Notes under the pieces: generated by a model
The model's database searches: none
Told to the model about the DNA's origin: nothing
The model's input: only the letters and a program-made list of their open reading frames with translations
Assembly: GCF_003254705.1 (NCBI RefSeq)
Contig: NZ_QFYR01000001.1
Location: forward strand, 1,240,001 to 1,304,000
Source of the DNA: Phenylobacterium deserti
Lineage (GTDB): Bacteria; Pseudomonadota; Alphaproteobacteria; Caulobacterales; Caulobacteraceae
Reading direction: 5' to 3'
DNA length: 64,000 nucleotides
Program-made: the position numbers and the translations under genes
Shown here: piece by piece, positions 7,751 to 40,838 of the stretch
How positions within the stretch are numbered: the first letter of the stretch is position 1
Layout of the letters: each line of letters opens with the position of its first letter

Positions 7751-7763
7751 AGCGGGCGGCTCC

Positions 7764-13941: not shown

Positions 13942-15354
13942 ATGATCCGAGCCCGCCGCGCACGCATCGTTGCGACCCTTGGCCCCGCCACCAGGTCGCC
14001 AGAAAAGATCCGTGAGTTGATCCAGGCGGGAGCCGACGTCTTCCGGGTGAACTTCAGCCACGGCTCGCACGAAGATCACGCCGAAACCATCCGCATGGTG
14101 CGGGAAGCGGAAGGCAAGGGCGACCGGCCGGTGGCCATCCTCGCCGACCTGCAGGGGCCGAAGCTGCGGCTCGGCAAGTTCGCCGAAGGCTCGGCCGAGC
14201 TGAAGGCCGGACAGAGCTTCCGCATCGACATGGACAAGACGCCCGGCGACACCGCCCGCGTGGGCGTGCCTCACCCCGAGGTCTTCGCCGCTCTTCGCGA
14301 GGGCTCGATCATCCTGCTGGACGACGGCAAGGTGCGCCTGCAGGTCACCGACCACGGCCCGGACTTCGCCGAGACGGTGGTGATTGCTGGCGAGAAGTTG
14401 TCCAACAACAAGGGCCTGAACCTTCCGGGCAACGCCATCCCGATCCCGGCGCTGACCGAGAAGGACCGCGCGGATCTGAAGTTCGCCCTGACTCAGAACG
14501 TCGACTGGGTGGCCTTGTCCTTCGTTCAGCGCGCCGCCGACATGGCCGAGCTGCGCAAGCTGGTCGAGGGGCGCGCCGCCGTCCTAGCCAAGATCGAAAA
14601 GCCGGCCGCGCTCGAGGCGCTCGATGAGATCCTGGACCTTTGCCAGGGCATCATGGTGGCCCGCGGCGACCTCGGTGTGGAGCTGAACCCCGAAGACGTT
14701 CCGGTGGTCCAAAAGCAGCTGGTCCGCATGGCGCGCAACCGCGGCATTCCGGTCATCGTCGCGACCCAGATGCTCGAGTCGATGATCTCATCGCCCACCC
14801 CGACCCGGGCCGAAGCCTCCGACGTCGCCAACGCGGTCTACGAGGGCGCCGACGCGGTCATGTTGTCGGCCGAGACTGCGGCTGGGGCCTATCCCGTCGA
14901 GGCGGTGTCGATCATGGACCGCATCATCACCCGCGTGGAGCACGATCCCCGCTGGCCTGAACTGATGCGCGCCGAGCACGTGATCGAAGAATCCGACGCG
15001 CTGGTCGCGGCCGCATTCCAGGCCGCCGAGGCCTCCTCCGCCGCCTGCGTGGTGACCTTCACCGCCACCGGCCAGACCGCCCTCCGGATGTCCCGCGAGC
15101 GTCCGACGCAGCCGACCCTCGCCCTGACTCCGCATCTGGGCACCGCGCGGCGGCTGGCGCTGGGTTGGGGTATCGAGCCGCGTGTGGTGCCGGATATCAA
15201 AGATCCGGAAGAGATGCCGCGGCTCGCCACCGAGCAGGCGCTGTCCACCGGCATCGCCGACCCGGGCGAGCGTGTGCTGATCCTGGCCGGCCTGCCCATG
15301 GGCTCGCCGGGCGCCGCCAACGTCCTGCGCCTCGCCCACACGCCGCGCCGCTAG
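13942..15354 (+). CDS. pyk: Pyruvate kinase
   Basis: A 470-residue glycolytic enzyme converting phosphoenolpyruvate and ADP to pyruvate and ATP. The N-terminal RRARIVATLGPATRSPEKIRELIQAGADVFRVNFSHG stretch is the family opening. The active-site lysine motif (LAKIEKPAALE) and metal-binding VARGDLGVEL follow at about 214-245, then the ATQMLESMI segment. The C-terminal regulatory domain is complete. It sits immediately upstream of pgl-edd-glk-eda, completing the lower end of the Entner-Doudoroff route in one place. Divergent from the GH15 gene. Confidence 0.97.
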   Translation: MIRARRARIVATLGPATRSPEKIRELIQAGADVFRVNFSHGSHEDHAETIRMVREAEGKGDRPVAILADLQGPKLRLGKFAEGSAELKAGQSFRIDMDKTPGDTARVGVPHPEVFAALREGSIILLDDGKVRLQVTDHGPDFAETVVIAGEKLSNNKGLNLPGNAIPIPALTEKDRADLKFALTQNVDWVALSFVQRAADMAELRKLVEGRAAVLAKIEKPAALEALDEILDLCQGIMVARGDLGVELNPEDVPVVQKQLVRMARNRGIPVIVATQMLESMISSPTPTRAEASDVANAVYEGADAVMLSAETAAGAYPVEAVSIMDRIITRVEHDPRWPELMRAEHVIEESDALVAAAFQAAEASSAACVVTFTATGQTALRMSRERPTQPTLALTPHLGTARRLALGWGIEPRVVPDIKDPEEMPRLATEQALSTGIADPGERVLILAGLPMGSPGAANVLRLAHTPRR

Positions 15355-23926: not shown

Positions 23927-24538
23927 TTGCCCAGCAAACTCCTGAGCCTCTCCGAACTTGAGCTGGATGCGCTCACCGAGTTGATCAACATCGGGGTCAG
24001 CCGGGCGGCGGCGAGCCTTGCCACCATGTGCCATGAGCCGGTCACCCTGACGGTGCCGGCGATCTCCACGGTCACTCCCGAACAGGCGTCGGAGATGATC
24101 GGCGGCGCCCGGGTCGGCAAGGTCGTGGCGGTTGAGCAGGCCTATGTGGGCGATGTCTCCGGCCGCGCCCTGCTGATCTTCCCGGAAGACAACAGCCTTG
24201 AACTCGCACGGGCGGTGGCTGGCGATGCGGAGCCTGAGGCGGCCGACATGGCCTCTGAGGCGGTGCTCGAGACGGGAAACGTTGTGCTGCAGACCTGCCT
24301 CAGCGCCATCGCCAATCTCCTGCAGCGCAATCTGCAGATTGCGACGCCGAAGCTGGTTGAGGGGCGTGCGCGCGAGCTGTTTCCGCGCGTCTCCCAGGAC
24401 GCCGTGCTGTTCGTCTACATCAACTTCAGCCTTCGCGGCCGTCGGATCCGCGGCTACATCGCCCTGCTGATGGACTTGGCGGCGCTCAAGGCGCTGAAGC
24501 GCCTGGTCAGCGAGTTCGTGGACCGCGAAGCGGGCTGA
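23927..24538 (+). CDS. CheC-type CheY-phosphate phosphatase, paralogue 1
   Basis: A 203-residue CheC/CheX-family protein. Both CheC active-site pairs are present: Glu18/Asn21 in TELINIG and Glu115/Asn118 in LETGNVV, so it should dephosphorylate a CheY-like protein. The TTG start at 23927 is supported because the first 16 residues then align in length and sequence with the paralogue at 26803-27450. It is convergent with the hybrid kinase (8-base gap) and outside the chemosensory operon, so its transcription is independent. Confidence 0.8.
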   Translation: MPSKLLSLSELELDALTELINIGVSRAAASLATMCHEPVTLTVPAISTVTPEQASEMIGGARVGKVVAVEQAYVGDVSGRALLIFPEDNSLELARAVAGDAEPEAADMASEAVLETGNVVLQTCLSAIANLLQRNLQIATPKLVEGRARELFPRVSQDAVLFVYINFSLRGRRIRGYIALLMDLAALKALKRLVSEFVDREAG

Positions 24539-24545: not shown

Positions 24546-26801
24546 TCAGCTGCCGATCATCGCGCGGATCTTGAGGGCCAGCGCGTCCACAGCGAACGGC
24601 TTGCTGATCATCTCCATGCCCGGCGCCAGGAACTCGGACCGGCGGGCGGCTCCAGCGGCATAGCCGGTAATGAACAGGACCGGCAGGTCCGGACGCGACT
24701 GTCGGGCGACGTCGGCCAGCTGGCGGCCGTTCAGCCCCGGCAGGCCCACATCGCTGATCAGCAGGTCGATCTGCCGGCTCGAGTGCAGGATCTTCAGGGC
24801 GCTGTCGGTGTCGGCGACTTCGAGGGTCTGGTAGCCGAGCTCGTTCAGCAGTTCGACGATCACGGCGCGCACCGCTGGCTCGTCCTCGACCACGAGCACG
24901 GTCTCGCCGGCGCCGCCCGGAGCCTCGCCGCGGTTGGACACCTGGGCTGCAGGCGTGTCGGCGAGGTGGCGCGGCAGGTACAGCTTCACGGTCGTGCCCA
25001 GTCCGGGCGCGCTGTAGATGCTGACGTGGCCGCCGGACTGGTGCGCGAAGCCGTACACCATAGACAGTCCTAGGCCTGTGCCCTGGCCCAGCGGCTTGGT
25101 GGTGAAGAAGGGGTCGAAGGCGCGGGCGATGACATGCTCCGGCATGCCGGTGCCGGTGTCGCTGACGCCGACCATGAGGTAGTCGCCGGGCGGCAGCTGA
25201 TCGGAGCCGGCGGCCAGAGGGCGGTCCAGGTGGATGTTGCTGGTTTCAAGCGTCAGCTTGCCGCCGTCGGGCATGGCGTCCCGGGCGTTGATGGCCAGGT
25301 TCAGCAGGGCGCTTTCCAGCTGGTTGGCGTCGATCAGGGCGGTCCAGAGGTCCGGCTGCAGCACGACGGCCAGATCCACCCGCTCGCCCAAGGTGCGGCG
25401 CAGCATGTCGGCCATCGAGGAGATGAGCTGGTTTACGTTGACCGCCTGGGGGTCCAGCGTCTGGCGGCGCGAGAAGGCCAGCAGGCGGTGGGTGAGGGCG
25501 GCGGCGCGTTCGGCGGAGGAGACGGCGGCGTCGATGAAGCGCTCAGCTTCGGCCACCCGGCCCTGGCCGATGCGGCGGCGGACCATGTCGAGGCCGCCCA
25601 ATACGCCGGTCAGCATGTTGTTGAAATCGTGAGCCAATCCGCCCGTCAGCTGGCCGACGGCTTCCATCTTCTGGCTTTGCCGCAGCTGGTCCTCGAGCTG
25701 CTTGCGCTCGTTGACGTCGCGGCCGGTGGCGTAGAAGTCGTTGCCGGCCGGAATGACGGTCCAGTTGAACCACCGCCAGCCGTGCTCCTTGCTGCGCATC
25801 CGCGCATCGCGGTCGGCCAGGACCGCGCGCTCGGTCCAGTGATCTTCAGCGCCCATTAGGTCATCGGGATGGACGAACTCGCTGAAGTGGCGCCCCACCA
25901 CCTCGTCCTCGCTCAGGCCCAGCAAGGCGCTCCAGGCCGGATTGACCGCCTGGTAGACGCCGGCGGGATTGAGGACGGCGAACAGGTCGCGCGAGTTGTT
26001 CCAGAGGCGATCCCGCTCCTGCGTGCGGGCTTCGACCCGCTGCTCCAGGGTGGCGGCCATCTCGCGCAGCTTGGCCTCGGCGGCCTTGGCGGCGGTGATG
26101 TCGTAGATGGCGCCGACAAAACTTACGCCGACACCGTCGCCGCTGGGGCGACGCTCGCCGCGCAGCGCCAGCCAGCGCTCCGCTCCCGTGTCGGCGCGGC
26201 GGATGCGCAGCTCCGCCTCGATCGGCGCGTCGACTTCGCTGGTGTAGGCGGAGATCAGCGGCGGATCGTGCGGATGGACGAGGCCGTTGATGGTGCGGAC
26301 AGGCAGGGCGTCCGCCGGATGCAGGCCCAAAAGCCGGCAGAACTGGTCCGAGACCGAGGCCGTTCCGAAGCCTTCGACATACTCGAAGGTGCCCACGCCG
26401 CCGGCGCTCTGCGCCACCCGGAGTCGCTCTTCGGTGCGCTTCTGCTCGCTGATGTCGATCAGCACGCCGGTGAAGCGGATCGGAGTGTCCGGCGTGTGTT
26501 CGGCCCTGCCCCGCGCGCTGAGCCAACGCACCCCGTCGGGAGCGGCCACGCGGAAGTCGCGAGCGAACACCTCAGCGCCGTGTCCCACAGCCGCGATAGC
26601 GATCCGCAGCCGCATGCGGTCTTCATGCAGCACACGCTGGAAGAAGCGCTCTGCAGCCAGCCCTGCCGCCGCTTCCGCGACGTCCAGCCCCATCAAGGCG
26701 GCGAAACGGGCGTCGCCCTGCACCTGGCCAGTGGCGAAGTCCCAGGCCCAGGCGCCGGTCGCTCCAGCCAGCGTGCTGGAGGTTTGAGCGGACGTGCTCA
26801 C
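24546..26801 (-). CDS. Cytoplasmic PAS hybrid histidine kinase with receiver domain
   Basis: A 751-residue sensor kinase without transmembrane segments. Three PAS domains occupy about 10-120, 130-240 and 263-370. A HisKA domain has the phospho-acceptor His391 in GGLAHDFNNML; the HATPase has NLAINARDAMP, GTGMP and GTGLGLSMV; a C-terminal receiver (about 632-750) has Asp684 in LISDVGLPGLNG. GTG start at 26801 lies one base after the upstream cheC stop with GGAGG six bases before it. Last gene of the chemosensory operon, so it probably feeds cytoplasmic or redox signals into the same CheY/CheC pathway. Confidence 0.92.
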   Translation of the reverse strand: MSTSAQTSSTLAGATGAWAWDFATGQVQGDARFAALMGLDVAEAAAGLAAERFFQRVLHEDRMRLRIAIAAVGHGAEVFARDFRVAAPDGVRWLSARGRAEHTPDTPIRFTGVLIDISEQKRTEERLRVAQSAGGVGTFEYVEGFGTASVSDQFCRLLGLHPADALPVRTINGLVHPHDPPLISAYTSEVDAPIEAELRIRRADTGAERWLALRGERRPSGDGVGVSFVGAIYDITAAKAAEAKLREMAATLEQRVEARTQERDRLWNNSRDLFAVLNPAGVYQAVNPAWSALLGLSEDEVVGRHFSEFVHPDDLMGAEDHWTERAVLADRDARMRSKEHGWRWFNWTVIPAGNDFYATGRDVNERKQLEDQLRQSQKMEAVGQLTGGLAHDFNNMLTGVLGGLDMVRRRIGQGRVAEAERFIDAAVSSAERAAALTHRLLAFSRRQTLDPQAVNVNQLISSMADMLRRTLGERVDLAVVLQPDLWTALIDANQLESALLNLAINARDAMPDGGKLTLETSNIHLDRPLAAGSDQLPPGDYLMVGVSDTGTGMPEHVIARAFDPFFTTKPLGQGTGLGLSMVYGFAHQSGGHVSIYSAPGLGTTVKLYLPRHLADTPAAQVSNRGEAPGGAGETVLVVEDEPAVRAVIVELLNELGYQTLEVADTDSALKILHSSRQIDLLISDVGLPGLNGRQLADVARQSRPDLPVLFITGYAAGAARRSEFLAPGMEMISKPFAVDALALKIRAMIGS

Positions 26802-26802: not shown

Positions 26803-27450
26803 TCACGCCTCCGCGGCGGCGCCCTGGCCGAGGACGCGCTGGATGAACTCGCCCACCAGCGTCTTGAGCGCGTCCAGCGACGGCAGATCCATCAGGATGG
26901 CGATGTAGCCGCGGATGTCCCGCTCGGTGACGGCGAAGTTGATGTAGAGGAAGAGGACCACGCCATCGTCCTCGCCAGCGTCGATCTCAAAGAGAGCCGG
27001 GCCCGGATCACGCATGACGCCGGGCAGCGACATCTCCAGCGGGCGCTGCAGCATGTTGGCCATGGTGGCCAGGCAGTTGTTCAGAACGACGTTGCCGGTT
27101 TCAGCCAGCGCCTCGTCCTCAAGGTCGGCGGCTTCGGCTTCCGACAACTCATCGCCTGTGACGGCGCGAACCAGGGCCAGGCTGTTGGCCTCCGGAAAGA
27201 TCAACAGCGCCCGCCCGGCGAAGGCGCCGGTGAACTCCTGACGAACGGCGACCAAGGGGCCGATCTCGCGCTCAGCCATCAGAGTGGCGGCGTCGCGGCG
27301 GCTGATCACCTCGATGGAAGGGACGGAGAGGAACACCTGCCGCTGCACCATCTGGCGCAGGCTCGAAGCGGCGCGGCTGACGCCGATGTTCACCAACTCG
27401 GTAAGAGCGTCGACTTCCAGCTCGTCCAGAAAGCCCGAAGAGCCGCTCAT
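26803..27450 (-). CDS. CheC-type CheY-phosphate phosphatase, paralogue 2
   Basis: A 215-residue CheC-family protein, clearly paralogous along its whole length to the protein at 23927-24538. Active-site pairs are Glu18/Asn21 (TELVNIG) and Glu117/Asn120 (AETGNVV). ATG overlaps the cheY stop (ATGA), so phosphatase and response regulator are translated together, which fits a dedicated CheY-P sink. No CheD or CheZ gene is seen, so CheC is the only obvious phosphatase in the cluster. Confidence 0.87.
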   Translation of the reverse strand: MSGSSGFLDELEVDALTELVNIGVSRAASSLRQMVQRQVFLSVPSIEVISRRDAATLMAEREIGPLVAVRQEFTGAFAGRALLIFPEANSLALVRAVTGDELSEAEAADLEDEALAETGNVVLNNCLATMANMLQRPLEMSLPGVMRDPGPALFEIDAGEDDGVVLFLYINFAVTERDIRGYIAILMDLPSLDALKTLVGEFIQRVLGQGAAAEA

Positions 27451-27827
27451 GAATTTCCGGCGCGAAGCTTCAGGGCTGCGCCCGAGATGAAGCCGCGGAT
27501 GGCGTCTTCGGTGATCGGCTTGGGCACGAAGGTGGCGCCGGCCGCACGGGCTCTGCTGATGACTTCGTCCTGGACATTGGCGGTAGCGAGCGCGATCGGC
27601 ATCGAGGGGAAGCGAGCGCGCAGCTCCTCAGCAAGTTCCAGACCGTTCCGACCCGGCATATTGAAATCCAGGATCATCAGGTCGACCGATTGGCTTTCTA
27701 GAACGGCCGTGGCCTCGTCGGCGTTGCCCGCTTCCAGCCGGACCCACTCGGGTTGCAGAGCCGCGATGGCCTTGCCCACGACAATCCGTGCGAGCTTGCT
27801 GTCGTCGACGATCAGTACCGTGGCCAA
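27447..27827 (-). CDS. cheY: CheY-like single-domain response regulator
   Basis: A 126-residue receiver with acidic pocket (LIVDDSK), phospho-acceptor Asp54 (MILDFNMPGRNG) and conserved Lys103 (VPKPI). The TTG at 27827-27825 is chosen: AAGGAG sits 7 bases before it and the protein begins directly with the first beta-strand (MATVLIVDDS), whereas the longer frame adds an arginine-rich lead. There is no output domain, so it acts by protein binding. The stop overlaps the next cheC start. Confidence 0.88.
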   Translation of the reverse strand: MATVLIVDDSKLARIVVGKAIAALQPEWVRLEAGNADEATAVLESQSVDLMILDFNMPGRNGLELAEELRARFPSMPIALATANVQDEVISRARAAGATFVPKPITEDAIRGFISGAALKLRAGNS

Positions 27828-27898
27828 ATATCTACTCCTTACCGGCCTGCGAGCGCTCAAAGCTCCTCTTCAATAGACGGCGCAGCCTTGGATGTCGC

Positions 27899-28150
27899 CT
27901 ACGTGTTCGCCGCAGTTTGTCCACGAAGGGCCGGGAGCAACAGATCGCGCAGGAACTGATCATCCGGCTCACCGACCAGGCGCGGGGCGAAGGCGACCAA
28001 CACCTGTACCACCGCGCCGTGCACGGACTGGCACCGGCTCAGGTCCACGCCACGTTCACCGGCCTGCAGCAGGGCCACAAGCGTTTCGGCCTCTTCCACC
28101 CGGCACGGCCCTTCCAGTCGGACGATCTCGCCGTCGAGGCGTACCGTCAT
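27899..28150 (-). CDS. Small STAS-domain protein
   Basis: An 83-residue STAS-like protein (TVRLDGEIVRLEGPCRVEEAE..., VDLSRCQSVHGAVVQVLVAF). The usual phosphorylatable motif D-S-[SA]-G of anti-anti-sigma factors is replaced by V-H-G-A at about 43-46, so phospho-switching at that serine is unlikely. The ATG overlaps the cheA stop (ATGA), showing translational coupling with CheA. STAS proteins occur in several non-flagellar chemosensory clusters; the exact role is unknown. Confidence 0.75.
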   Translation of the reverse strand: MTVRLDGEIVRLEGPCRVEEAETLVALLQAGERGVDLSRCQSVHGAVVQVLVAFAPRLVGEPDDQFLRDLLLPALRGQTAANT

Positions 28151-30099
28151 CCGATCAACTCCGCGACATCGAGCACCATCAGCACGCGGCCGTCGCCAAG
28201 CAGCGTGGCGCCCGCCATCCCTGGGAGGCGCGAGAGAAGGCCGTCCATGGGCCGAAGCGGCGCCTCCAACCGCTCTCCGAAATCATCGACCGCCACTGCG
28301 GCCAGGTCTGCGCCCGCTTCGACGACCATCAGCTTCAACTCGTCGGGGCTGCCTGTTTGAGACGGCAGTCCCAGGAGGTCCGATAGTCGGAGCAGGGGCA
28401 GGGGACGGTCGCGCCAGACCAGCGCCTGCCCGGCGCGAACAGGCGTCAGGCTTGCGACGCGGACACGAGCTGTCTCGACAACAGCCTCCAGCGGCACGCC
28501 GAACGTCTCGCCGCCCGCCGAGACCTGCATCAGGCGCGCGAGCCGAACCCGCACAGGCAAGGTCAGGCTGACGCGGGCGCCTGCCCCTGGACGACTTTGC
28601 ACCTGCACGCGACCGCCCAAAGCCGTAACCGCGGCCCGAACAGCATCGAGGCCGACGCCGCGGCCGGACAGATCCGTAACCGCGCTGGCGGTCGAGAATC
28701 CAGGAGCGAAGATCAACTCGGCCACCTCGTCGTCGGACATGGCGGCGAGCCTCGCGGCGTCAGCGAGGCCTCTGGTCTGGGCGGTTGCGCGGATGCGAGC
28801 CAGGTCCAGGCCACGTCCGTCATCGGCGGCTTCGATGACCACCTCGTCGCCCACCGTGCGGGCGGAAAGCCGAAGGATCGCTTGTGCGGGCTTGCCGAGG
28901 CGTCGCCGTTCGGACGGCGGTTCGACGCCGTGATCGAGTGCGTTGCGCAGGAGGTGAAGCAGGGGTTCGAACAGACCGTCGGCGACACTCTTGTCGACTT
29001 CCACATCCTCGCCCGCGAGAACGAGATCGACGGCCTTACCCAGAGTCTCGGCCGTTTCAGCCACCAGGCGAGGAAAGCGGCGGAACAAGCCGGATAGGGG
29101 CGTCAGCCGCAGATTGGTGACGGCGCCATGCACCCGGGCGGTCAAGCGGTCCAAATCCGCCTGCGCCGTCGCCAGGGCGCGGGCGGTCGCCGGGTCGGCG
29201 AGTTCGGCCAGGGTGCGTCCGATGTGCGTCAGGGCGTTTTTAGCCACCACCAATTCGTCGACCGCGCTGGCCAGCGCGTCGATGCGGGCGCTGTCGACGC
29301 GAAGCGTGCGGGTGGCTGGACCGGCGAGGGGCGCCGCATCCATGGCGGCGGCTTCCGGCGGCGCCGCTTCGGCTGTCACCGTAACAGCCGCGAACTCCAC
29401 CTCGTCGGCGACGAAGCGGAAGGCGGCCTGCATCTGCGGCAGGGTCGAACCTGAGAGACCGCTGAGCTGCAGGTTGCAGGCGAAAGGGTCATAGGCCGCG
29501 AGATCGCCGAACGGCTCGCGTGGGGCGATGCTGAGGCGAGCGAGTTCGGGCGCGGCCTGCACTAAGCCGACGGGGTCGTGGCCGGCGAAATAGCTGTCGC
29601 GTCCCGGCGTGTAGCGGAACGCCACATAGCGGCCAGGCGGCAGGGGACCTGCGTCCGCCAAGGCCAGCGCCCAACCCGGCGTCGCGCCCGCCGGCGCGTC
29701 GAGGTCGGAAGCACCAGCCTCGCAGCGTTCGAGCCGCGAAAGCAGTGAGGATGTCCGCTGGGCGGCGTCGTCGGGCGCGACGCCCTCACGTTCTATGCGC
29801 TCGATCCACTCCTCGGCCTGCCAGAGCACGGCGCGAAGGACTTCCGCCTCGCCGGGTTCCAGAAGCGCGCCGCTCCGGCGCAGTTCGGCCAGCCGGTCCT
29901 CCGCGGCATGGAACAGCTCGCCCATCGGGGCGAAGCCGATCAGGCCGGCCGAGCCCTTGAGCGTGTGCACGGCCCGAAAGAGGCCTTCCAACGCAGAGCC
30001 GTCCTGCGGCGCACGGACGAGCGTCGACAGCTCCCGGTCCGCTTGTTCGAGAAGCTCGCGGCCCTCGGTGACAAAGACCTCCAGGAGCTCGTCGCTCAC
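28147..30099 (-). CDS. cheA: Chemotaxis histidine kinase CheA
   Basis: A 650-residue CheA. The Hpt domain (1-110) has the phospho-acceptor His45 in AVHTLKGSAGL. Residues about 135-240 form an extra domain (RYVAFRYTPGRDSYFAGHDP) in place of a classical P2. Dimerisation helices start near 258. The ATPase has LLHLLRNALDHGVEPPSER, DDGRGLDLARI and GRGVGLDAVRAAV, and a CheW-like P5 domain ends the protein. GTG start overlaps the cheR stop. No receiver domain is attached. It would phosphorylate CheY and CheB under control of the soluble receptor. Confidence 0.95.
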   Translation of the reverse strand: MSDELLEVFVTEGRELLEQADRELSTLVRAPQDGSALEGLFRAVHTLKGSAGLIGFAPMGELFHAAEDRLAELRRSGALLEPGEAEVLRAVLWQAEEWIERIEREGVAPDDAAQRTSSLLSRLERCEAGASDLDAPAGATPGWALALADAGPLPPGRYVAFRYTPGRDSYFAGHDPVGLVQAAPELARLSIAPREPFGDLAAYDPFACNLQLSGLSGSTLPQMQAAFRFVADEVEFAAVTVTAEAAPPEAAAMDAAPLAGPATRTLRVDSARIDALASAVDELVVAKNALTHIGRTLAELADPATARALATAQADLDRLTARVHGAVTNLRLTPLSGLFRRFPRLVAETAETLGKAVDLVLAGEDVEVDKSVADGLFEPLLHLLRNALDHGVEPPSERRRLGKPAQAILRLSARTVGDEVVIEAADDGRGLDLARIRATAQTRGLADAARLAAMSDDEVAELIFAPGFSTASAVTDLSGRGVGLDAVRAAVTALGGRVQVQSRPGAGARVSLTLPVRVRLARLMQVSAGGETFGVPLEAVVETARVRVASLTPVRAGQALVWRDRPLPLLRLSDLLGLPSQTGSPDELKLMVVEAGADLAAVAVDDFGERLEAPLRPMDGLLSRLPGMAGATLLGDGRVLMVLDVAELIG

Positions 30100-30938
30100 G
30101 TGCGACGCTCCGGCCGGCGATAGACCACGGCGTCTTCGAAACGGCAGGTGTCGAACCGGTCGCTGATCCGGGACATGGACTCGGTGTGACCGAGGCAGAT
30201 GAAGCCGCCCGGGCGAAGCGCGGTGTAGAGGTTGTCCACGGCGCGGGCGCGCGCGGCGTCATCGAAGTAGATCAGCACATTGCGGCAGAAGATCACCTCG
30301 AAACCGCCCTGATCGGCGACGCTGTCGCCCTCGATCAGATTGGCGGGCGTGAAGGCGACGGACTCCTTCAGGTCCTGAATGATCTCGTGCTCGCCGGGCC
30401 GCCGCTGCTCGAAGTAGCGCTGGATCACATCGGCCGGCAGCCGTTGAAGAGCGCGGTCGCCGAACCGGCCGAGGCGCGCCGCCTGCAGCGCCTCGGTGTC
30501 GATGTCGGAGCCGACGATTTCCACATTGTAGGCGTCCACCATCGGCCAGTTCTCCAGCAGCCAGATGGCGATGGAGTAAGGCTCTTCCCCAGTGGAGCAC
30601 GGAACCGACCAGATGCGGATCTTGTCGCCGGGCCCCTTGGTCCTGGCGATCGCCGGCAGGATGGAGCGCGACAGGGCGCGCAGCTGGTGGTCTTCCCGGT
30701 AGAAGTAGGTCTCGTTGACGGTGAAGGCGTTGATCATCGCCTCCAACTCGCCCGGCCGGTTTCGCAGAGTGGCGAACCAGTCTGAGAAATGTCCCGAGCC
30801 GGTGGCTTTCACCCGGTCGGCGATGCGGCGTTCAATATAGTAGCGTTTGCTCTCCCCGAAGACCATTCCGGTCCGCTGGTAGAGGAACTCGCAGAAGCGC
30901 TCGAGATCGGCGGGCTTGAGAGCCGGATCCTGGTTCAT
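30096..30938 (-). CDS. cheR: Chemoreceptor glutamate methyltransferase CheR
   Basis: A 280-residue SAM-dependent enzyme that methylates receptor glutamates for adaptation. Motifs include FTVNETYFYRE, the SAM-binding SVPCSTGEEPYSIA, IVGSDIDTEAL and FEVIFCRNVLIYFD. ATG 30938 overlaps the cheB stop (ATGA) and removes an upstream arginine-rich extension that is only antisense-like reading of cheB. Fourth gene of the operon. Confidence 0.95.
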   Translation of the reverse strand: MNQDPALKPADLERFCEFLYQRTGMVFGESKRYYIERRIADRVKATGSGHFSDWFATLRNRPGELEAMINAFTVNETYFYREDHQLRALSRSILPAIARTKGPGDKIRIWSVPCSTGEEPYSIAIWLLENWPMVDAYNVEIVGSDIDTEALQAARLGRFGDRALQRLPADVIQRYFEQRRPGEHEIIQDLKESVAFTPANLIEGDSVADQGGFEVIFCRNVLIYFDDAARARAVDNLYTALRPGGFICLGHTESMSRISDRFDTCRFEDAVVYRRPERRT

Positions 30939-32035
30939 CGCGGAAGACCGGAGATCAGTCGGCTGGCGAGATCTGGCAAGGGCGCCACGACGGCGGCTCC
31001 GCCTGCCCGAACCAGTTCGCCTGGCATGCCCCAGACCACCGCAGTCTCTTCCGCTTCGGCCAGAGTGTGGCCGCCGGCCTGGCGCAGGCGAGTCATGGCC
31101 GCAGCGCCGTCGTCCCCCATGCCGGTCATCAGCACGCCGGCGAGCCGCGCGGCGGGAATGCAGGCCATGGCGCTGTCCACCAGCCTGTCGACGCTGGGGT
31201 GCCAACGGTGCTCGGCGCTGGAGGGCGCGGCCACGGCGGTCAAGCCCTGAGGGCGAAGGGTTACGATCAGGTCCGCGTCGCCCCGTCCGATGTAGACTCG
31301 GCCTGGGGTGATCGGCGTCGGCTGCACCACCTCAACCACTTCGAGCGCGCAAAGCCCATCGAGGCGGCGGGCAAGCGGCCCGGTGAAGGCGCGCGGCATG
31401 TGTTGGGCGACCAGGATCGGCCAGGGGAAATCGGCCGGCAGAGGCTCCAGCAAGGCATCCAGCGCGGGCGGGCCGCCGGTGGAGCATCCCACGAGGACGA
31501 GACCCGGCGGCGCTTCCTCAGGCAGGTCGACAGGCGGCGTGGCGACGGGCGCCCCCGCCTTTGGTCGGCGTTTGGGCGCGACAAGCGCGCGCTCGCCGTG
31601 GAGCGTGCGGACCCGCTCCGCCAGCCGGTGCGTGCGGCGGATGCGTGCGCCGGCGGCGGCCCGGATCTTCTCCAGCAGCAACGGCGCCAGGTCCTCGATC
31701 TGCAGGGACACCGCGCCCGAGGGCTTTTCGACGAAGTCCACCGCGCCGAGCGCCAGCGCCTCAACCGTCTCGTCCGCGCCGTCGGCCGTCAGGGACGAGA
31801 CCATCACAACCGGCGTGGGCCGTTCGATCATGATCCGGTCGAGGCAGGTCAGACCGTCCATCTGCGGCATGTTCACGTCGAGGGTGATCACGTCTGGTGC
31901 GAAGCTGATCAGCTCGGACAACGCTTCCACGCCATTGCGGGCGAAGGCGACCTCGAACCCGCCGTCGTCCTGCAGGACTTCGCCCAGTAGGCGTCGCATC
32001 AGAGCAGAGTCATCGACAACCAGAACACGCGTCAC
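30935..32035 (-). CDS. cheB: Chemoreceptor methylesterase CheB
   Basis: A 366-residue response regulator-methylesterase. The N-terminal receiver has the acidic pocket VVDDSA and Asp53 (TLDVNMPQMDG); after a linker the catalytic domain has Ser185 (VGCSTGGPP), His212 (AQHMPRAFT) and Asp309 (GMGDDGAAA). It removes methyl groups from receptor glutamates and can deamidate glutamines. GTG start overlaps the triple-CheW stop. Confidence 0.96.
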   Translation of the reverse strand: MTRVLVVDDSALMRRLLGEVLQDDGGFEVAFARNGVEALSELISFAPDVITLDVNMPQMDGLTCLDRIMIERPTPVVMVSSLTADGADETVEALALGAVDFVEKPSGAVSLQIEDLAPLLLEKIRAAAGARIRRTHRLAERVRTLHGERALVAPKRRPKAGAPVATPPVDLPEEAPPGLVLVGCSTGGPPALDALLEPLPADFPWPILVAQHMPRAFTGPLARRLDGLCALEVVEVVQPTPITPGRVYIGRGDADLIVTLRPQGLTAVAAPSSAEHRWHPSVDRLVDSAMACIPAARLAGVLMTGMGDDGAAAMTRLRQAGGHTLAEAEETAVVWGMPGELVRAGGAAVVAPLPDLASRLISGLPR

Positions 32036-33447
32036 AGGTGGGCCGCCGTCCTTTGCGCCAGTTCCGCCACCAGGTCGGATTCCGCCCGGTCGAGAAGACC
32101 CCGCGGATCGACCAGCAAGATCACGCGCCCATCCTCCAGCTGCGCCACTCGATCGAAGACCTGGCCCGCGTCGGCGGTGAGGTCCGGCGTGGCCGCGATG
32201 CGCTCCGCCGGGATGGCCAGGATTTCCGTCACCCCATCGACGGCGAAGGCGGTGACCGCTCCGCCGATGCGCGTGACGACCGCGCGTCGGCGCCCCGCCG
32301 GCGCGTCGCCCTCCACACCGAAGCGGCGGCGCTGGTCAATCACGGGAGCGGCTTCACCGCGCAGGTTCATCACCCCGGCCACGAAGGCCGGCGCGTTGGG
32401 CACGCGGGTCAAGGGCTCGGGCAGGCGAGCGACTTCCTCCACCGCGCCGATCGGCAGGCCGTAGTGCTCCTGGCCCAGGGTGAAGATCAGGAAGCGTTCG
32501 CCAAGGTCGGCCTGTTGCGCGGTCATCTGGGCTCCCCTTTGTCGCCCGTCCTGGAGGATCTGGGCGACGCTGTCCTCGCGGAACAGCCGCTCAGGCGACA
32601 GAACCGAAACCAGACCACCGTCTGCCAGGCGCAGCATCGCGTCGATGTGCGCTTCGCCGGCGCCCCGGTTCAGCACCGCCGGCACCGGGCCAATGGCGGT
32701 GACGGGCGCGCGCAGGATCGAAGTCAACCGATCCACCACGAGCCCGACCCGCGCGTCGCCGATGGAGGCGACCACGACGCGGGCGCCTGGGTTCGTCGGC
32801 TCGGCCGGGAGGCCCAAGAGAGCGCGGCTGGAGACGACCGGCAGCAGGGCGCCGCGCAGGGACATGACGCCCAGCATGGCGGCGTCGGTTTTCGGCAGGG
32901 CGGCGATGTCCGCCGGAATGGCGAGGACCTCCCGCACCTGCTCCAGAGGCAGGGCGTAGGGCTGGCCGGCGAGCACGAACCCCAGCAGGGCGATGTCCGC
33001 GGCGCGTGGAAGCTCGGTCTTGCGGGCGGGGGCGGCCTGTGCGCCGGTCCGGGCGCGGGCGAAGCCGGCGAACTGGGCGGCGATAAGTTCATGCAGCGGG
33101 AGCACGCGCGCGCCGCCGGCTTCGGACAGATAGATCTCGCCGGACTGGGCTTCAGCCTGAGTCAGGCCCAGGACCTCGTCCACGGCCAAGGCCAACGGCC
33201 GCTCGCCCCCGATCACCACCAGGCGACCACCTGAAGCGGTCACAGCATCGTCACCGAGCAGACGGCCGAGCGCCACCACCGGAACCACTTCGCCCCGCAG
33301 GCTGGCCACGCCTGCCAGGGCGGGCGGCGAATGGGGCACGCGGGTGATGCGCGGCTGGCGCACGACTTCGAACACATCGGCGGCAGGCAAGCCCAGCCGC
33401 CGCTCGCCGACCCGGAAGGTGAGGACGTTCCCCTGGCCCGCGGCCAT
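32032..33447 (-). CDS. Triple CheW-domain coupling protein
   Basis: A 471-residue protein made of three consecutive CheW domains: about 5-135 (VLTFRVGERRLGLPAADVFEV), 150-300 (LLGFVLAGQPYALPLEQVREV) and 318-465 (FLIFTLGQEHYGLPIGAVEEV), each with its own LRG loop (ASLRGEVVPV, MSLRGALLPV, MNLRGEAAPV). Ordinary CheW has one such domain of about 150 residues. It could link several receptor tips or CheA P5 domains in one chain. It lies four bases after the receptor stop. Confidence 0.92.
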   Translation of the reverse strand: MAAGQGNVLTFRVGERRLGLPAADVFEVVRQPRITRVPHSPPALAGVASLRGEVVPVVALGRLLGDDAVTASGGRLVVIGGERPLALAVDEVLGLTQAEAQSGEIYLSEAGGARVLPLHELIAAQFAGFARARTGAQAAPARKTELPRAADIALLGFVLAGQPYALPLEQVREVLAIPADIAALPKTDAAMLGVMSLRGALLPVVSSRALLGLPAEPTNPGARVVVASIGDARVGLVVDRLTSILRAPVTAIGPVPAVLNRGAGEAHIDAMLRLADGGLVSVLSPERLFREDSVAQILQDGRQRGAQMTAQQADLGERFLIFTLGQEHYGLPIGAVEEVARLPEPLTRVPNAPAFVAGVMNLRGEAAPVIDQRRRFGVEGDAPAGRRRAVVTRIGGAVTAFAVDGVTEILAIPAERIAATPDLTADAGQVFDRVAQLEDGRVILLVDPRGLLDRAESDLVAELAQRTAAHL

Positions 33448-33451: not shown

Positions 33452-35377
33452 TCAGGCCCCGGCGGTCTGCAGGGCGTCGGCGAGTTCGGCGATTTCCTCG
33501 ATGGCGGCGGCCAGGTCCTCGGAGCCTCGCGCCTGCTGGCGGGCGGCGGTCGCTGCCTGCGTGGCGGCGCCGCCGGCTTCTTCGGCCGCGGCGGCGATTT
33601 GCTGAGCGCCTCCGGCGACTTCGCGCACGGCGCGCAGGATGGCCGTAGCGCCTTGAAGGATTTCCTCCGCCGCGTGGCGCACGTCCTCCACGTCCTCGGC
33701 GATGCGGCCGAGCCGCTCGTCCAACGCCGAGCTGCGGGTCACCTCGCTTTCGGCGGTGAGGGCGATCTGGTCGAGATCGCGGCGAACGGTGGCGATCTCG
33801 TCCTGCAGGGCGCGCAGCACGTCCTTCACCTTGTCGGCGTTCTCGGCCGAGTCATGGGCCAGGGTGCGGATGTCGCCGGCCACGGTCGCAAAGCCTTGTC
33901 CGGCGTCGCCGGCGCGGGCCGCTTCCACGGCGCCCGAAACGGCGAGCATGGTGGTCTGCACCGCGATCAGGGCGATGGCGTCCACCTGCTTTTCGATTTG
34001 CCGGCTGGCGAGCGCCAGCTCGGCGGCGCGCTCGGCGCTGGCGTGAGTGTCCGTGAGGGCGGCGCCGACGCCGGTGGTGAGCTGGTTTACAGCCGTGCGG
34101 CTCGCGCCGAGCCGGGCCTGAACCGCTTCGGCGCGGGAAAGGGCGGCGGCGGCGGACTCGCGGGCGCGGGTGGCGGCCTGCTCAATCTGGGTCATGGCCG
34201 CGGTGGACTGCTGGGTCGCGGCGGCCTGGATCTGCGCGCCGCGGCTGATCTGTTCGATGGCGACCAGGATCTCGGCGGCGGCGCCCGACAGCTCCTGAAC
34301 GGCGGCCGACAGCTGTTCGGCGGCGGCGGCGATTTGCGGCGCCTGAGCCGCGCCGTCGTCCTCCTGCAGCACCTCGGCCATCTCGGCCAGGGCGTGGGCG
34401 GTGCGGTCGCTTTCCTCCAGGGAGCTTGCCTGCTGCTGGACGGCGCGCTGGGCCTCGGCGGCGGCGGCGGACTGCTCCTCCGCCGCGCTGGACACGCTTT
34501 CGGCGCCGCGCTGGGCCTCGCGGGCGGCGCTTTCCGCTTCCACGGCGGCCAGCAGAATGGCCTGGGCCCCCGCGCCGAGTTCGGCCATCTCCTGACGGAT
34601 GGCGCCCAGGGTTTGGGACACGGAGCGGGCGGCTTCGGCCTCGTCCGTCGCGCGGCTGGCCGCGCCGCGCACCCGGGTGGTCAGTTCGCGGACGGCCCCG
34701 GCGATCTCGCCCGCCAGCACGCCCACTTCGCGCGAGCGGCGCTCGGCGGTCTCAGCGAGGGCGCGGACCTCGTCGGCCACGACGGCGAAGCCGCGGCCGT
34801 TGTCGCCGGCGCGGGCGGCCTCGATGGCGGCGTTCAGCGCCAGGAGGTTGGTCTGGTCCGACATGTCGGCCACGGTTTGGGTGATCTCGCCGATCACGCC
34901 GGCGCGGGTCTCCAGGGAGCCGATGACCTCCACCGACCCGAGCTGGCGGGTCGCGTTGGCCTGAACGGCGTTGACGGAGGCCTCCACCAGGGCGGCGGTC
35001 TCCACCACGAAGGCCTGAAGCGCTTCGGTGCGGCGGCGGGAGGTTTCGGCGCGCTCGCGGGCCTGGGCGAAGTCGGCGCTCAGGGCGGTGACGGAGGCGA
35101 GAGACTCGTGGCTGGCGCCGGCGGCCTGCTCGGCGGCGGCCGCGATCTGCTCCAGGGCGCGGCGCAGCTCCTCGGCCGCGGAGGCCGCTTCGCTGACGCC
35201 GCTGGCCAGCTCGTGGGTGGCCGCGCCGATCCGCTCGGCGGCGGTGCGGCCACGGACGGGTCGGGACTTGCGCGGCTTGGCGGGGGTGCGGACCTCGGCC
35301 TCGGCGGCCGCTTCGGGCGCGGGCGTGGTCGCCGGGCGTCCCCGGCTGGCCAGGGTCGAACGCTTCACCAATGCCAT
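33452..35377 (-). CDS. Soluble methyl-accepting chemotaxis protein with two signalling tips
   Basis: A 641-residue, almost wholly alpha-helical, Ala/Glu-rich coiled-coil receptor. There is no transmembrane segment and no recognisable sensor domain; residues 1-45 are Pro/Ala/Lys-rich. A canonical hairpin tip lies at about 164-209 ([20 protein letters not shown]). A second divergent tip lies at about 462-509 ([20 protein letters not shown]), each flanked by long heptad helices. ATG 35377 ([13 protein letters not shown]) with AAGGA upstream is preferred to a start 32 codons earlier. First gene of the che operon. Architecture recalls the double-signalling-domain receptor DosM of Vibrio cytoplasmic arrays. 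Confidence 0.9.
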
Positions 35378-36735: not shown

Positions 36736-37485
36736 CTAGATGGCGCCGGCGCGGTACGGCGGCTGCGGAATGGAGGCTTGGGCGGCGCGCAGGGCCGTGG
36801 ACCAGCGCTCGTTGAGATCGTGGTAGTACGGGTCGGTCTCGTCGATGCGGTGGACGAGCTCGGCTGTCGCCTGTCCGCTGCGGGCGATCAGCAGGTCGAT
36901 GGGCAGGCCGACGGCGAGGTTCGAGCGCATGGTCGAGGAGAAGGAGATCAGGCCGATCTTCACCGCCTCGTAGACATCGGTGTCGAAGGTCAGCGCGCGG
37001 TCGAGGATCGGCTTGCCGTACTTGGTCTCGCCGATCTGCAGATAGGGGGTGTCAGGGCCGCACTCGATGAAATTCCCGGCGCCATAGACCAGGAACAGGC
37101 GGGTCGGCTCGCCGCCGATGCTGCCGCCCACCAGAAGGGTGGCGTCGAAGTTGATGTCCGAGCCCTGGGTCAGGCCTTCCATGGCGGTGCGGGCCTGGCG
37201 CACGGCCTGGCCGATCAGCCAGGCGGCGCGGTGGATGGTGGGCGCGGTGTGGATCGACTCCATCTCGCCGGTGTCCGGCGCAAGGAAGCCGTGGGCCGCC
37301 TGCTCCAGGGCCGCCTGGGTGGTCGACAGGCTGCCCGCGGTGGCGACCGCCACCAGCCGCTCGCCGTCGTTCCCGAAGATCTGGAGCTTGCGATAGGTGG
37401 AGATGTTGTCGACGCCCGCGTTGGTGCGCGTGTCGGCCAACATCACAAGGCCGTCCTTCACGAGCAGTCCAACGCAGTAGGTCAC
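36736..37485 (-). CDS. Anbu proteasome-like peptidase (ancestral beta-subunit)
   Basis: A 249-residue Ntn-hydrolase. It begins (GTG start) M-T-Y-C-V-G, so removal of Met exposes the catalytic N-terminal threonine with no propeptide, and continues ADTRTNAGVDNIS as in Anbu proteins, with KLQIFG supplying the conserved lysine. Anbu forms open-ended helical or ring oligomers and lacks a proteasome ATPase partner. GGGGG seven bases upstream is the ribosome-binding site. It is the last enzyme gene of the ATP-grasp/alpha-E/transglutaminase/Anbu operon, a conserved set proposed to make and remove a peptide tag. Confidence 0.95.
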   Translation of the reverse strand: MTYCVGLLVKDGLVMLADTRTNAGVDNISTYRKLQIFGNDGERLVAVATAGSLSTTQAALEQAAHGFLAPDTGEMESIHTAPTIHRAAWLIGQAVRQARTAMEGLTQGSDINFDATLLVGGSIGGEPTRLFLVYGAGNFIECGPDTPYLQIGETKYGKPILDRALTFDTDVYEAVKIGLISFSSTMRSNLAVGLPIDLLIARSGQATAELVHRIDETDPYYHDLNERWSTALRAAQASIPQPPYRAGAI

Positions 37486-37497
37486 GACCGATCCCCC

Positions 37498-38313
37498 TTA
37501 TTCCTGCCGCTGGACGCCCGCCTGGTGAGCGCGGACCGTCACGCTTAGCCGCTCCTCGCCCCCGCCGCGGCGCGCCCCACGAAGCGGCGCAGCATCTAGG
37601 TAATCGAGTCCCACGGCGACGCGAAGGTAGAACGCGTCCGCGCACACGCCGTTGGCCGCGTCAAATGCGACCCATCCAAGGTCCGGCACGAAAGCTTCGG
37701 CCCAGGCGTGGGCCGCTTCCTGATCCGAGCTGTCGGCGCGCACCAGGTGGCCGGAGACGTAGCGGGCCGGCAGGCCAATGCAGCGGGCGGCGGCGATGAA
37801 GATGTGCGCGTAGTCCTGGCAGACGCCGCGGCCCTGGTCGAAGGCGTCCGCGGCGCCCGTGGCGACCACGGTGGCGGTGGTGTCGAACACCAGGCGTGCG
37901 TGAAGCCGTCCCATGAGCTCGTGCAAGCGGGCCAGGGGCGCTCCGTCCGGAATGGTGCGGGCGAACTCCAGCAAAGCCCTGTTGGGGGTCGTCAGCGGCG
38001 TGGTTCGAAGGAACACGTTGGGCGGCAAGGGCTCGACCGCCCCGCGCACCACGCCTGCGGTGTCTTCCGTCTTCACCTCTCCGGTCACGCGAAGGGTGAG
38101 TTCGCGCACGGGCTGGTCGACGTAGAACATGGTCAGGAGGTTGCCGAAGGCGTCGCGGCTGTCGCGCATCCGGCCGTCGACGTCGGCGTCCAGGCGCCAG
38201 CGCACCACGTGCTGGCCTTCGTGGTCGCCTGGCGTGAGGCGCAGCGCCTGGACCACCCCGTCGGCCGGGGCGGTGTAGCTGTAGGTCGTGGCGTGGCTGA
38301 CCTTGATGCGCAT
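37498..38313 (-). CDS. Transglutaminase-like peptidase of the Anbu operon
   Basis: A 271-residue papain-fold protein with an N-terminal bacterial transglutaminase beta-domain (MRIKVSHATTYSYTAPADGVVQALRLTP) and the core with the catalytic triad: Cys in GRGVCQDYAHIFIAA, His in AHAWAEAFVP and Asp in WVAFDAANG. In this operon type it is thought to act as a peptidase or amidase on the peptide made by the ATP-grasp partner. ATG 38313 overlaps the alpha-E stop; the longer upstream frame is antisense-like. Confidence 0.93.
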   Translation of the reverse strand: MRIKVSHATTYSYTAPADGVVQALRLTPGDHEGQHVVRWRLDADVDGRMRDSRDAFGNLLTMFYVDQPVRELTLRVTGEVKTEDTAGVVRGAVEPLPPNVFLRTTPLTTPNRALLEFARTIPDGAPLARLHELMGRLHARLVFDTTATVVATGAADAFDQGRGVCQDYAHIFIAAARCIGLPARYVSGHLVRADSSDQEAAHAWAEAFVPDLGWVAFDAANGVCADAFYLRVAVGLDYLDAAPLRGARRGGGEERLSVTVRAHQAGVQRQE

Positions 38314-39254
38314 CAGAACAGGAACTGCTCGGCCACGGCGGCTCCCAACTCGTTGTTGTCGCCCAGGAAGCCGGTGATGAACTCGTGAAGGCCGGAGGCG
38401 AACACGGTGTCGATATCGGTGTCGCCCAGCGCGAGAAGGGTGGCTGAGGCTAGACGGTGGGCCCGCCCGCGGCGGCCGCTGTCCTGCGCCAGGCTGTCCA
38501 ACAGGCCGGAGATCTCCTCGTAGCAGGCCGCCAGGGAGCGGGGCATCTCGGTGTTGAAGATCAGCAGGTCGGCTACGAGCCAGGGCTTCACCGCGTCCTT
38601 GTAGACCCAACGATAGGCCGTCAGGGCCGAGACGGTGCGCAGAATGGTCGCCCACTGGAAGTAGTCGAGGCTGCCTCCCACCGGCTCGGTCCGAGGCAGC
38701 AGCACGTGGTACTTCACATCCAGCAGACGGGCGGTGTTGTCGGCCCGCTCGATCGCCGCGCCCAGGCGCAGGAACCAGAAGGCGTCGCCGCGCAGCATGG
38801 TGCGCTGGGCTGCGCCGTCGAAGGCCAGCACGGCCCGGCGGACGGTCTCGATCAGTTCGGAAGCGCGGCTAGGTGACGGCGTGCCGACCCCAAAGCGCTC
38901 GACCTGCAACCAGCTGTCGTTCAGCGTTTCCCAGGCTTCAACGGTCAGGCCGGTCCGCACGGCGCGCGCATTGCTGCGGGCCCGCTCAAGGCAGTTGCGC
39001 ATGGAAGACGGGTTAGCTGGGTCCAGGCTCATGAAATGGACGGCGGCGTCGTCGCTCACCTCGCCATAGGCGTCGGCGAAGGCCTGGGCGACGCCGGCGG
39101 CCGCCAGGGCCGCCGACCAGGCCTGAGGGTCGCCGCCGTAATCGGCGGGCAGGCTGGACAGGCGCAGGGTCGCGTCCAGCAGGCGGGCGGTGAAGTCCGC
39201 GCGCTCGATGTAGCGACCGGTCCAGTAGAGGTTTGCAGCAGTACGGGAAAGCAA
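38313..39254 (-). CDS. Alpha-E domain protein (DUF403) of the Anbu operon
   Basis: A 313-residue all-alpha protein. It starts at TTG 39254 as MLSRTAANLYWTGRYIERADFTARLLDA, the near-invariant opening of alpha-E proteins; no ATG is close. The WFLRLGAAIERADNTARLLDVKYH repeat and C-terminal SGLHEFITGF fit the family. Alpha-E proteins are found with circularly permuted ATP-grasp ligases and are thought to support peptide synthesis. The start lies two bases after the ATP-grasp stop. Confidence 0.93.
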   Translation of the reverse strand: MLSRTAANLYWTGRYIERADFTARLLDATLRLSSLPADYGGDPQAWSAALAAAGVAQAFADAYGEVSDDAAVHFMSLDPANPSSMRNCLERARSNARAVRTGLTVEAWETLNDSWLQVERFGVGTPSPSRASELIETVRRAVLAFDGAAQRTMLRGDAFWFLRLGAAIERADNTARLLDVKYHVLLPRTEPVGGSLDYFQWATILRTVSALTAYRWVYKDAVKPWLVADLLIFNTEMPRSLAACYEEISGLLDSLAQDSGRRGRAHRLASATLLALGDTDIDTVFASGLHEFITGFLGDNNELGAAVAEQFLF

Positions 39255-39256
39255 GG

Positions 39257-40708
39257 TCAGTCGTCCGACACCCAGGTGTCCTTGGTGCCGCCCCCCTGGC
39301 TGGAATTGACCACCAGCGAGCCGGGCGTGAGCGCCACGCGCGTCAGGCCGCCCGGCACAACCCGAACGCCGTCGGCGCCCGTGAGCACAAAGGGGCGCAG
39401 GTCCACGTGGCGGGGCTCGATGCGGCCGTCGCAAAGGGTCGGGCAAGTGGAAAGGGCGAGCGTCGGCTGGGCGATGAACTTCTCGGGGGTGGCCAGCAGC
39501 TTGTGGCGGAAAGCCTCGATCTGCCCGCGGCTGGCGTGCGGCCCGACCAGCATGCCGTAGCCGCCCGAACCGTCGACTTCCTTGACGACCAGCTGGTCCA
39601 GCCTGCCCAGCACCTCGCGCAGGGCATCGGGCTCGCGGCAGCGCCAGGTCGGCACGTTCTTCAGGATCGGCTCCTCGCCCGTGTAGAACCGGACGATCTC
39701 GGGCATGTAGCTGTAGATGGCCTTGTCGTCGGCGACGCCCGTGCCCACCGCATTGCAGAGCGCCACGTTGCCGGCGAGGTAGGCGCTCATCAGGCCTGGC
39801 ACGCCCAGGGTCGAATCCGGCCGGAACGCCAGCGGATCGATGAAGGCGTCGTCCACCCGGCGGTAGATCACATCCACCCGACGCGGGCCTTCGGTGGTGC
39901 GCATGTAGACGATGTCGTCGCGCACGAAGAGGTCGACGCCCTCGACGAGCTCGACGCCCATCTTATCGGCGAGGAAGCTGTGCTCGAAGAAGGCCGAGTT
40001 GTAGTGGCCGGGCGTGAGGACCACGATCCCCGGATCCTCTTCCCGACCCTCCGGCGCCACCGAGCGCAGGGTCTGAAGCAGCAGGTCCGGATAGGTCTCC
40101 ACCGGGGCGACCCGGGCCCTGCCGAGCAGCTCGGGGAAGAGCCGCATCATCATCTCCCGGTTCTCCAGCATGTAGGAGACGCCGGAGGGCGTGCGGGCGT
40201 TGTCTTCCAGAACGTAGAAGTCGTCGCCGCCGGTGCGCACCAGGTCGATGCCAGCGATGTGGGTGAAGACGCCCTTGGTGGGGGCATGGCCGACCACTGC
40301 CAACTGGTACTGCGGGTTCAGCAGGACGAGGTCTTCCGGCACCACCCCGGCGCGCAGGATCTCGCGCGGTCCATAGACGTCGGCCAGGAAGGCGTTCAGC
40401 GCCTGCACCCGCTGAACGAGCCCGCGCTCCAGACGCGTCCACTCTGAGCGGGTGAGGACGCGCGGCACGATGTCGAAGGGGATCAGCCGCTCCGCGCCCT
40501 CGGCCTGGCCATAGACGCTGAAGGTGATGCCGGTGCGGCGGAACAGGTGCTCGGCTTGGGCGCCACGGGTCTGCAGGAGGTCCTGAGGCGTCTCCTCCAA
40601 CCAGCGGCGGACTTCGCGATAGGGCGTGCGCGCCTCGTTCCCGAAGCCGCTCATCTCATCGAAGGCGCCCGGCGTGCGGAACAGGTCGGACGACGCGTGG
40701 GAGTACAT
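39257..40708 (-). CDS. Circularly permuted ATP-grasp ligase of the Anbu operon
   Basis: A 483-residue ATP-grasp type 2 enzyme (DUF404/DUF407 region). Hallmarks are IPFDIVPRVLTRSEW near the N-terminus, VLEDNARTPSGVSYMLENR, VVLTPGHYNSAFFEH, VIYRRVDDAF, and the C-terminal LVVKEVDGSGGYGMLVGP and VNSSQGGGTKDTW loops. It should ligate amino acids through an acyl-phosphate, building a short peptide. ATG 40708 (MYSHASSDLF) is preferred; TTG 40798 is an alternative. First main gene of the operon, behind an exact EcfG-type promoter. Confidence 0.93.
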   Translation of the reverse strand: MYSHASSDLFRTPGAFDEMSGFGNEARTPYREVRRWLEETPQDLLQTRGAQAEHLFRRTGITFSVYGQAEGAERLIPFDIVPRVLTRSEWTRLERGLVQRVQALNAFLADVYGPREILRAGVVPEDLVLLNPQYQLAVVGHAPTKGVFTHIAGIDLVRTGGDDFYVLEDNARTPSGVSYMLENREMMMRLFPELLGRARVAPVETYPDLLLQTLRSVAPEGREEDPGIVVLTPGHYNSAFFEHSFLADKMGVELVEGVDLFVRDDIVYMRTTEGPRRVDVIYRRVDDAFIDPLAFRPDSTLGVPGLMSAYLAGNVALCNAVGTGVADDKAIYSYMPEIVRFYTGEEPILKNVPTWRCREPDALREVLGRLDQLVVKEVDGSGGYGMLVGPHASRGQIEAFRHKLLATPEKFIAQPTLALSTCPTLCDGRIEPRHVDLRPFVLTGADGVRVVPGGLTRVALTPGSLVVNSSQGGGTKDTWVSDD

Positions 40709-40712
40709 GAGC

Positions 40713-40838
40713 CTAGCCAACGTGAAATGCCGCTGGCCGGACAGGCGCGCGCCGCCCTGGATGGTCGCTGGCCGCTGCTGAGCCGCAGCCCTGCGCAATC
40801 CTTGTGCGACGGCGCCGAAAAAGCAGGCGTGCGGTCAT
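40713..40838 (-). CDS. Possible short leader ORF before the ATP-grasp gene
   Basis: A 41-codon frame (MTARLLFRRRRTRIAQ...) starts at ATG 40838, 3 bases after GAGGG, and stops 4 bases before the ATP-grasp ATG. It lies between the putative EcfG promoter (40866-40891) and the operon. It is arginine-rich and could equally be chance; translation might couple to the next gene, whose own ribosome-binding site is weak. Confidence 0.25.
   Translation of the reverse strand: MTARLLFRRRRTRIAQGCGSAAASDHPGRRAPVRPAAFHVG

Follow-up and report, generated by a model that had tools for sequence, protein, structure and literature searches.

A minus-strand gene in the window, the 64,000-nucleotide stretch of Phenylobacterium deserti DNA that was analysed, is supported by sequence comparison as an alphaproteobacterial relative of DosM, the double chemoreceptor of class F9 chemotaxis systems, and the relationship is one of orthology and not mere resemblance. 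Proteins of this kind are already known; this analysis adds that their two signalling tips are consistently different from each other across phyla. The assignment to DosM rests on an adjoining CheW3 gene, a gene order collinear with that of Vibrio, a shared tip-to-tip spacing (300 residues), a common MALxK start and the grouping of all second hairpins into a single clade. It bears out an earlier sequence-only reading of this DNA, which had noticed the likeness to DosM and had given no strand for the gene. Each sequence-level mark of F9 and DosM that we tested for was found: tandem MCP domains, CheW3 within the cluster, neither transmembrane segment nor sensor domain, a full che set and common descent with Vibrio DosM. 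That the gene encodes an ordinary tandem receptor of some other class, with a CheW neighbour by chance and unrelated to DosM, is refuted for practical purposes. Such a receptor would account for the low identity to Vibrio DosM, which is expected for any pair of MCPs, and for nothing else, and the collinear operon, the spacing, the N-terminal motif, CheW3 and the tree all contradict it. The gene is located as follows.

33452..35377, minus strand: dosM, soluble chemoreceptor with two tandem MCP hairpins, 641 aa (translation, Pfam, self-comparison, AlphaFold)

To our knowledge, the structure of F9 arrays is known from one organism only and no function is known for them. A survey (PMC9321776) defines the class by DosM, with two tandem signalling domains, together with CheW3, with three concatenated CheW domains, and reports the full cluster in 64 of 2,781 species and a partial one in 8. 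The same survey states that 98% of DosM homologues are without a sensor domain and that the distribution is patchy with much horizontal transfer (PMC9321776). In V. cholerae, DosM is reported from cryo-tomography to be an elongated rod that carries signalling domains at both ends and spans two CheA/CheW3 plates; DosM is essential for this array, in which another receptor is present in alternate trimers (PMC7534058). The V. cholerae plates are 35 nm apart (PMC3964821).

Two tandem MCP hairpins in the dosM product

Translation of the minus strand of 33452-35377 from MALVK to the stop codon yields 641 aa and the coordinates are exact, with the start codon supported because orthologues begin at the same MALxK. 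MCPsignal is the sole Pfam domain of the product and is found in two stretches. When the halves were scored separately, the hairpin-1 half (residues 44-340) reached 91.4 bits and the hairpin-2 half (residues 345-641) 80.4 bits, both above the curated PF00015 family cut-off of 34.6 bits. Comparison of the product with itself gave a score of 356 at an offset of 299 residues, where 92 of 293 positions are identical. This is more than 6 s.d. above other offsets (mean -75, s.d. 65 for offsets 200-399), and the runner-up offsets are displaced by one heptad, as coiled coils predict. The dosM product is an internal tandem duplication with a constant offset of 299 residues, and its second copy is not due to chance. 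Methylation-type motifs are present in both hairpins.

The full-length AlphaFold model, run as a monomer with a five-sequence alignment, has a mean pLDDT of 88 and consists of a disordered tail to about residue 41-43, helix at 42-339, a break at 340-345 and helix at 346-640, with dips in pLDDT at both tips. The protein is divided into the following parts.

35249..35377, minus strand: disordered basic N-terminal tail starting MALVK, residues 1-43 (pLDDT about 33-35)
34361..35254, minus strand: hairpin 1, residues 42-339, tip about D174-V199 with E186 (model, alignment, profile)
34343..34360, minus strand: non-helical break between the hairpins, residues 340-345 (full-length and junction-only models)
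33455..34342, minus strand: hairpin 2, residues 346-641, tip about V473-T498 with E485 (model, superposition, profile)

The Thermotoga receptor hairpin 2ch7 can be overlaid on residues 338-641, with 304 residues aligned at 2.6 Å. Both tips are predicted to be located at hairpin turns, tip 1 by its sequence match to the hairpin family and tip 2 by sequence and model. Their central glutamates, E186 and E485, fall within the ranges where the sequence-only reading had placed a canonical (residues ~164-209) and a divergent tip (~462-509). That reading had also described the receptor as free of membrane helices and recognised sensor domains, and had staked itself on the second motif lying at a hairpin turn and on an N-terminus without a membrane or sensor domain; it stands on all these points. 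The Pfam search detected no sensory domain, residues 1-43 are predicted to be disordered and there is no credible membrane helix. The single 19-residue window scoring at least 1.6 on the Kyte-Doolittle scale (1.61 at residues 465-483) was rejected as a membrane helix, as it represents the conserved tip-2 helix and is found inside the hairpin in the model. Residues 1-48 carry a net charge of +7, and MALxK or a close variant together with a net-positive tail is found in nearly all family members with a recognisable start, including those from Vibrio and Acidobacteria. The full model also matched helical-bundle pore proteins and various other helical proteins, hits that were set aside because they reflect common long-helix bundles and are functionally meaningless.

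Organization and distribution of the dosM operon

The genes of the dosM cluster encode CheA, CheY, CheB and CheR, with a single CheA in the operon.

32032..33447, minus strand: cheW3, three concatenated CheW domains, 471 aa (three PF01584 stretches)
30935..32035, minus strand: cheB methylesterase with receiver domain (Pfam)
30096..30953, minus strand: cheR methyltransferase (Pfam)
28147..30099, minus strand: cheA kinase with Hpt, dimerisation, HATPase and CheW domains (Pfam)
27899..28150, minus strand: small STAS-like protein, 83 aa (weak PF13466 match, E=0.0019, below the Pfam cut-off)
27447..27860, minus strand: cheY-like single receiver protein (Pfam)
26803..27450, minus strand: cheC/cheX-family phosphatase (Pfam)
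24546..26801, minus strand: PAS hybrid histidine kinase with C-terminal receiver (Pfam), common to several alphaproteobacterial relatives
23927..24538, plus strand: second cheC/cheX-family gene, convergent with the PAS hybrid kinase gene

Domains 2 and 3 of CheW3 are collinear with their counterparts in relatives, domain 1 less clearly so. A homologue of the STAS-like protein comes after cheA in most relatives; a literature search for STAS genes in F9 clusters returned nothing useful. CheC paralogues terminate the locus in several relatives as well. Elsewhere in the window, genes unrelated to dosM encode a proteasome-type protein, a transglutaminase-like protein, an alpha-E protein and a circularly permuted ATP-grasp protein (36736-40798, minus strand).

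Clear full-length DosM relatives are found in three of 35 congeners, which places a complete F9 system in an alphaproteobacterial genus with patchy carriage (4/36 genomes). Four other genomes among 385 sampled from the class also encode a full-length relative, as do seven more genomes from the order to which Bradyrhizobium belongs, at least one of which (identical coordinates) was already part of the class sample. Among 118 Vibrio genomes, the genus being taken from the named Vibrio record L084, two carry DosM. Relatives are also present in Microvirga, Bradyrhizobium, an acidobacterial MAG, a contig binned as Paenibacillus and Denitrovibrio, and in a Rhodoferax MAG in frame-shifted pieces. Since generic MCP tip words served as its patterns, the scan of the genome collection is of limited value. 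In one congener, dosM is split over three overlapping reading frames (L176 of G011, 12859-14919), reflecting either sequencing error or decay.

The gene order DosM-CheW3-CheB-CheR-CheA-STAS is common to the Microvirga, Bradyrhizobium, acidobacterial MAG and Vibrio loci, and many alphaproteobacterial relatives add a CheY-CheC-PAS kinase tail. The phosphatase and PAS kinase genes of this conserved tail hint at an input or output route. One Vibrio F9 locus (L170:13216-13860) encodes a HEAT-repeat protein between cheB and cheR that is absent from the operon in the window. In another locus (L180, about 3205-9758), the F9 cluster is reduced to DosM, CheW3, CheA and the STAS gene with no adjoining cheB or cheR, which suggests an array without methylation-based adaptation.

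Divergence of the two tips across the DosM family

Of 17 members drawn from several phyla, 14 have their tips 300 residues apart, among them Vibrio DosM; the spacing is 299 in two members including the one described here, and 402 in one member with a CZB insertion. This last protein, from Denitrovibrio (L047:9902-12139), contains a CZB zinc-binding domain (PF13682, residues 436-500) within the first arm of hairpin 2 and represents a rare sensor-bearing DosM.

For comparison of the tips, we numbered as position 0 the isoleucine or valine preceding the EAA motif (I185 and V484 here). Consistent differences between tip 1 and tip 2 across the 17 members are found at positions -11 (Asp versus Val/Ile), -7 (Leu versus Met), -4 (Leu versus Val), -2 (Ala versus Gly) and +18 (Glu versus Asp), while Glu at +1 and Arg at +4 are kept in both tips with one exception. 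Positions -11, -7 and -4 presumably correspond to F373, I377 and L380 of E. coli Tsr. In Tsr, a proline at I377 blocks the assembly of dimers into trimers, and determinants for CheA and CheW are likewise located in the tip region (PMC4692393). Tip 2 could have been a peculiarity of this gene, which was rejected on finding the same divergence in the 17 family members. Judged from these alignments, the divergence is a property of the whole family and suggests that the tips of DosM are not interchangeable.

When 34 hairpins were placed in one tree with eight other receptors of this genome, the second hairpins all grouped in a single clade (100/100), and the first hairpins did so in just 24% of bootstrap trees. 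No hairpin of the tip-2 type was found outside DosM in the nine genomes searched, where DosM hairpin 2 scores at least 104 bits and everything else at most 79.5 bits. Among all fetched loci, the tip-2 motif occurred without tip 1 in DosM fragments and in a single DosM with QTDLLALN, and nowhere else.

It is very improbable that tip 2 belongs to a decayed, non-coupling hairpin that serves as a structural spacer only, leaving CheW/CheA to be bound by tip 1 alone. Tip 2 does have MLAVSG where the near-universal LALNAA core is expected, as such a spacer might. However, the tip has a conservation pattern of its own that holds in Proteobacteria, Acidobacteria, Deferribacteres and Vibrio, with certain residues fixed and E485 and R488 retained, and it forms a single clade; decay would not give such conservation. 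In addition, both ends of DosM are found in plates by cryo-tomography (PMC7534058).

The sequence-only reading had suggested that the second tip perhaps contacts a partner different from that of the first. This may be so and is a candidate idea worth testing, as the divergence sits at positions of trimer and CheW/CheA contact. The location of these differences is not evidence for a second partner because a single CheA is encoded in the operon and the arrays of V. cholerae are described with a CheA/CheW layer on each side. The conserved tip difference poses a simple testable question on how two-plate arrays are built.

A candidate membrane-free sandwich array

Taken together with what is known of the Vibrio orthologue, the anatomy of the protein and the gene content make it likely that DosM of this complete class F9 operon is a dimeric rod, bearing kinase-coupling tips at its two ends, that staples two CheA/CheW3 plates into a membrane-free, cytoplasmic sandwich and acts in scaffolding and adaptation. 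Two chains would dimerise lengthwise, and tip 1 would insert into one plate and tip 2 into the opposite one. A sandwich of about the V. cholerae thickness (35 nm) is expected because the tip spacing is the same. As a receptor without a sensor domain, DosM would mainly be a scaffold and adaptation platform; it would be methylated by CheR and CheB of the operon, and the methylation-type motifs in both hairpins fit such adaptation. Other receptors, or else the operon's own PAS kinase or STAS protein, would supply the input, and output would pass via CheA to CheY and be damped by the CheC-type phosphatases. By gene position, the PAS kinase, the STAS protein and the CheC phosphatases are plausible partners in these input and output steps.

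A point against this arrangement is that the V. cholerae F9 array needs a second receptor in alternate trimers and no obvious partner is seen here. Besides DosM and its operon, the genome encodes flagellins, a second CheA-type cluster that has a CheW of its own, an additional CheW and nine MCP-containing proteins. None of these nine shares a DosM tip: eight have a tip type unrelated to either DosM tip, and the ninth protein is truncated and Cache-linked. In the latter (L011:673-1794, 374 residues), the MCP tip, MLAINAMITAARAGEAGRGFMVV, is truncated and degenerate and precedes a Cache-like domain whose PF02743 match is below the cut-off. Two soluble PAS-type receptors of the genome (L002 and L007) could still join array trimers.

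A second point, against a continuous rod in particular, is that the isolated junction folds antiparallel in AlphaFold, although a lone chain may be forced to do so. It is unlikely, though, that DosM forms a single-chain pseudo-dimer in which hairpin 2 folds back beside hairpin 1 as a four-helix bundle, with both tips at one end, one directed to the trimer axis and the other to CheA/CheW. Sandwiches would in this case arise by base-to-base contact, as reportedly occurs for truncated E. coli Tar. In favor of a folded-back chain, the short non-helical break at 340-345 appears in both full-length and junction-only models, and the junction hairpin is matched end to end by SMC 5xg2 (Z 15.5, 2.4 Å, 219 residues) and by MCP hairpins. 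Many structural matches of the full model cover both hairpins, which are of equal length and in register, and one tip facing inward with the other facing outward would yield a fixed tip difference. Engineered single-chain Tsr~Tsr receptors are functional (PMC4692393). Nevertheless, AlphaFold was given one chain and is biased to fold helices back when no partner is supplied, and V. cholerae DosM has been reported as an extended rod by cryo-tomography (PMC7534058). Baseplate spacing does not discriminate between the rod and the folded-back chain, since it equals two hairpin lengths under both.

More tentatively, the two tips of DosM may have split once, anciently, and been kept different at contact positions in every sampled phylum, leading either to a polar sandwich in which each plate has its own tip type or to a folded-back chain with trimer-contact and kinase-coupling tips at one end. 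If true, either outcome would alter the current picture of DosM as a symmetric staple. The rod spanning two plates is the arrangement we favor.

Comparison with known systems

The closest known system is cluster I/F9 of V. cholerae with its DosM (VC1403), and two Vibrio genomes provided the DosM used in the comparison (loci L146, L147 and L170). Both proteins consist of tandem, soluble, sensorless hairpins with MALxK and the same tip 1 and tip 2 types, a spacing of 300 residues in Vibrio corresponds to 299 here, and CheW3 adjoins DosM with CheB, CheR, CheA and a gene in the STAS position following in the same order. In contrast, Vibrio has a HEAT-repeat gene, and a CheY between CheR and CheA, both missing at these places from the alphaproteobacterial operon, and the latter continues after the STAS gene with CheY, CheC and the PAS hybrid kinase. 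No receptor matching the Vibrio partner is evident in this genome. The F9 clusters described in the survey (PMC9321776) are likewise built on DosM and CheW3 and patchily spread, and share with the present one its presence in a flagellated genome with another che cluster.

Engineered Tsr~Tsr receptors resemble DosM in that one chain joins two receptor hairpins; they differ in being artificial and membrane-bound and in having HAMP domains and two tips that are identical. FrzCD of Myxococcus is similarly a soluble receptor with a basic N-terminal tail, but has one signalling domain where DosM has two. The FrzCD tail binds the nucleoid, according to a study of that protein (PMC5716589).
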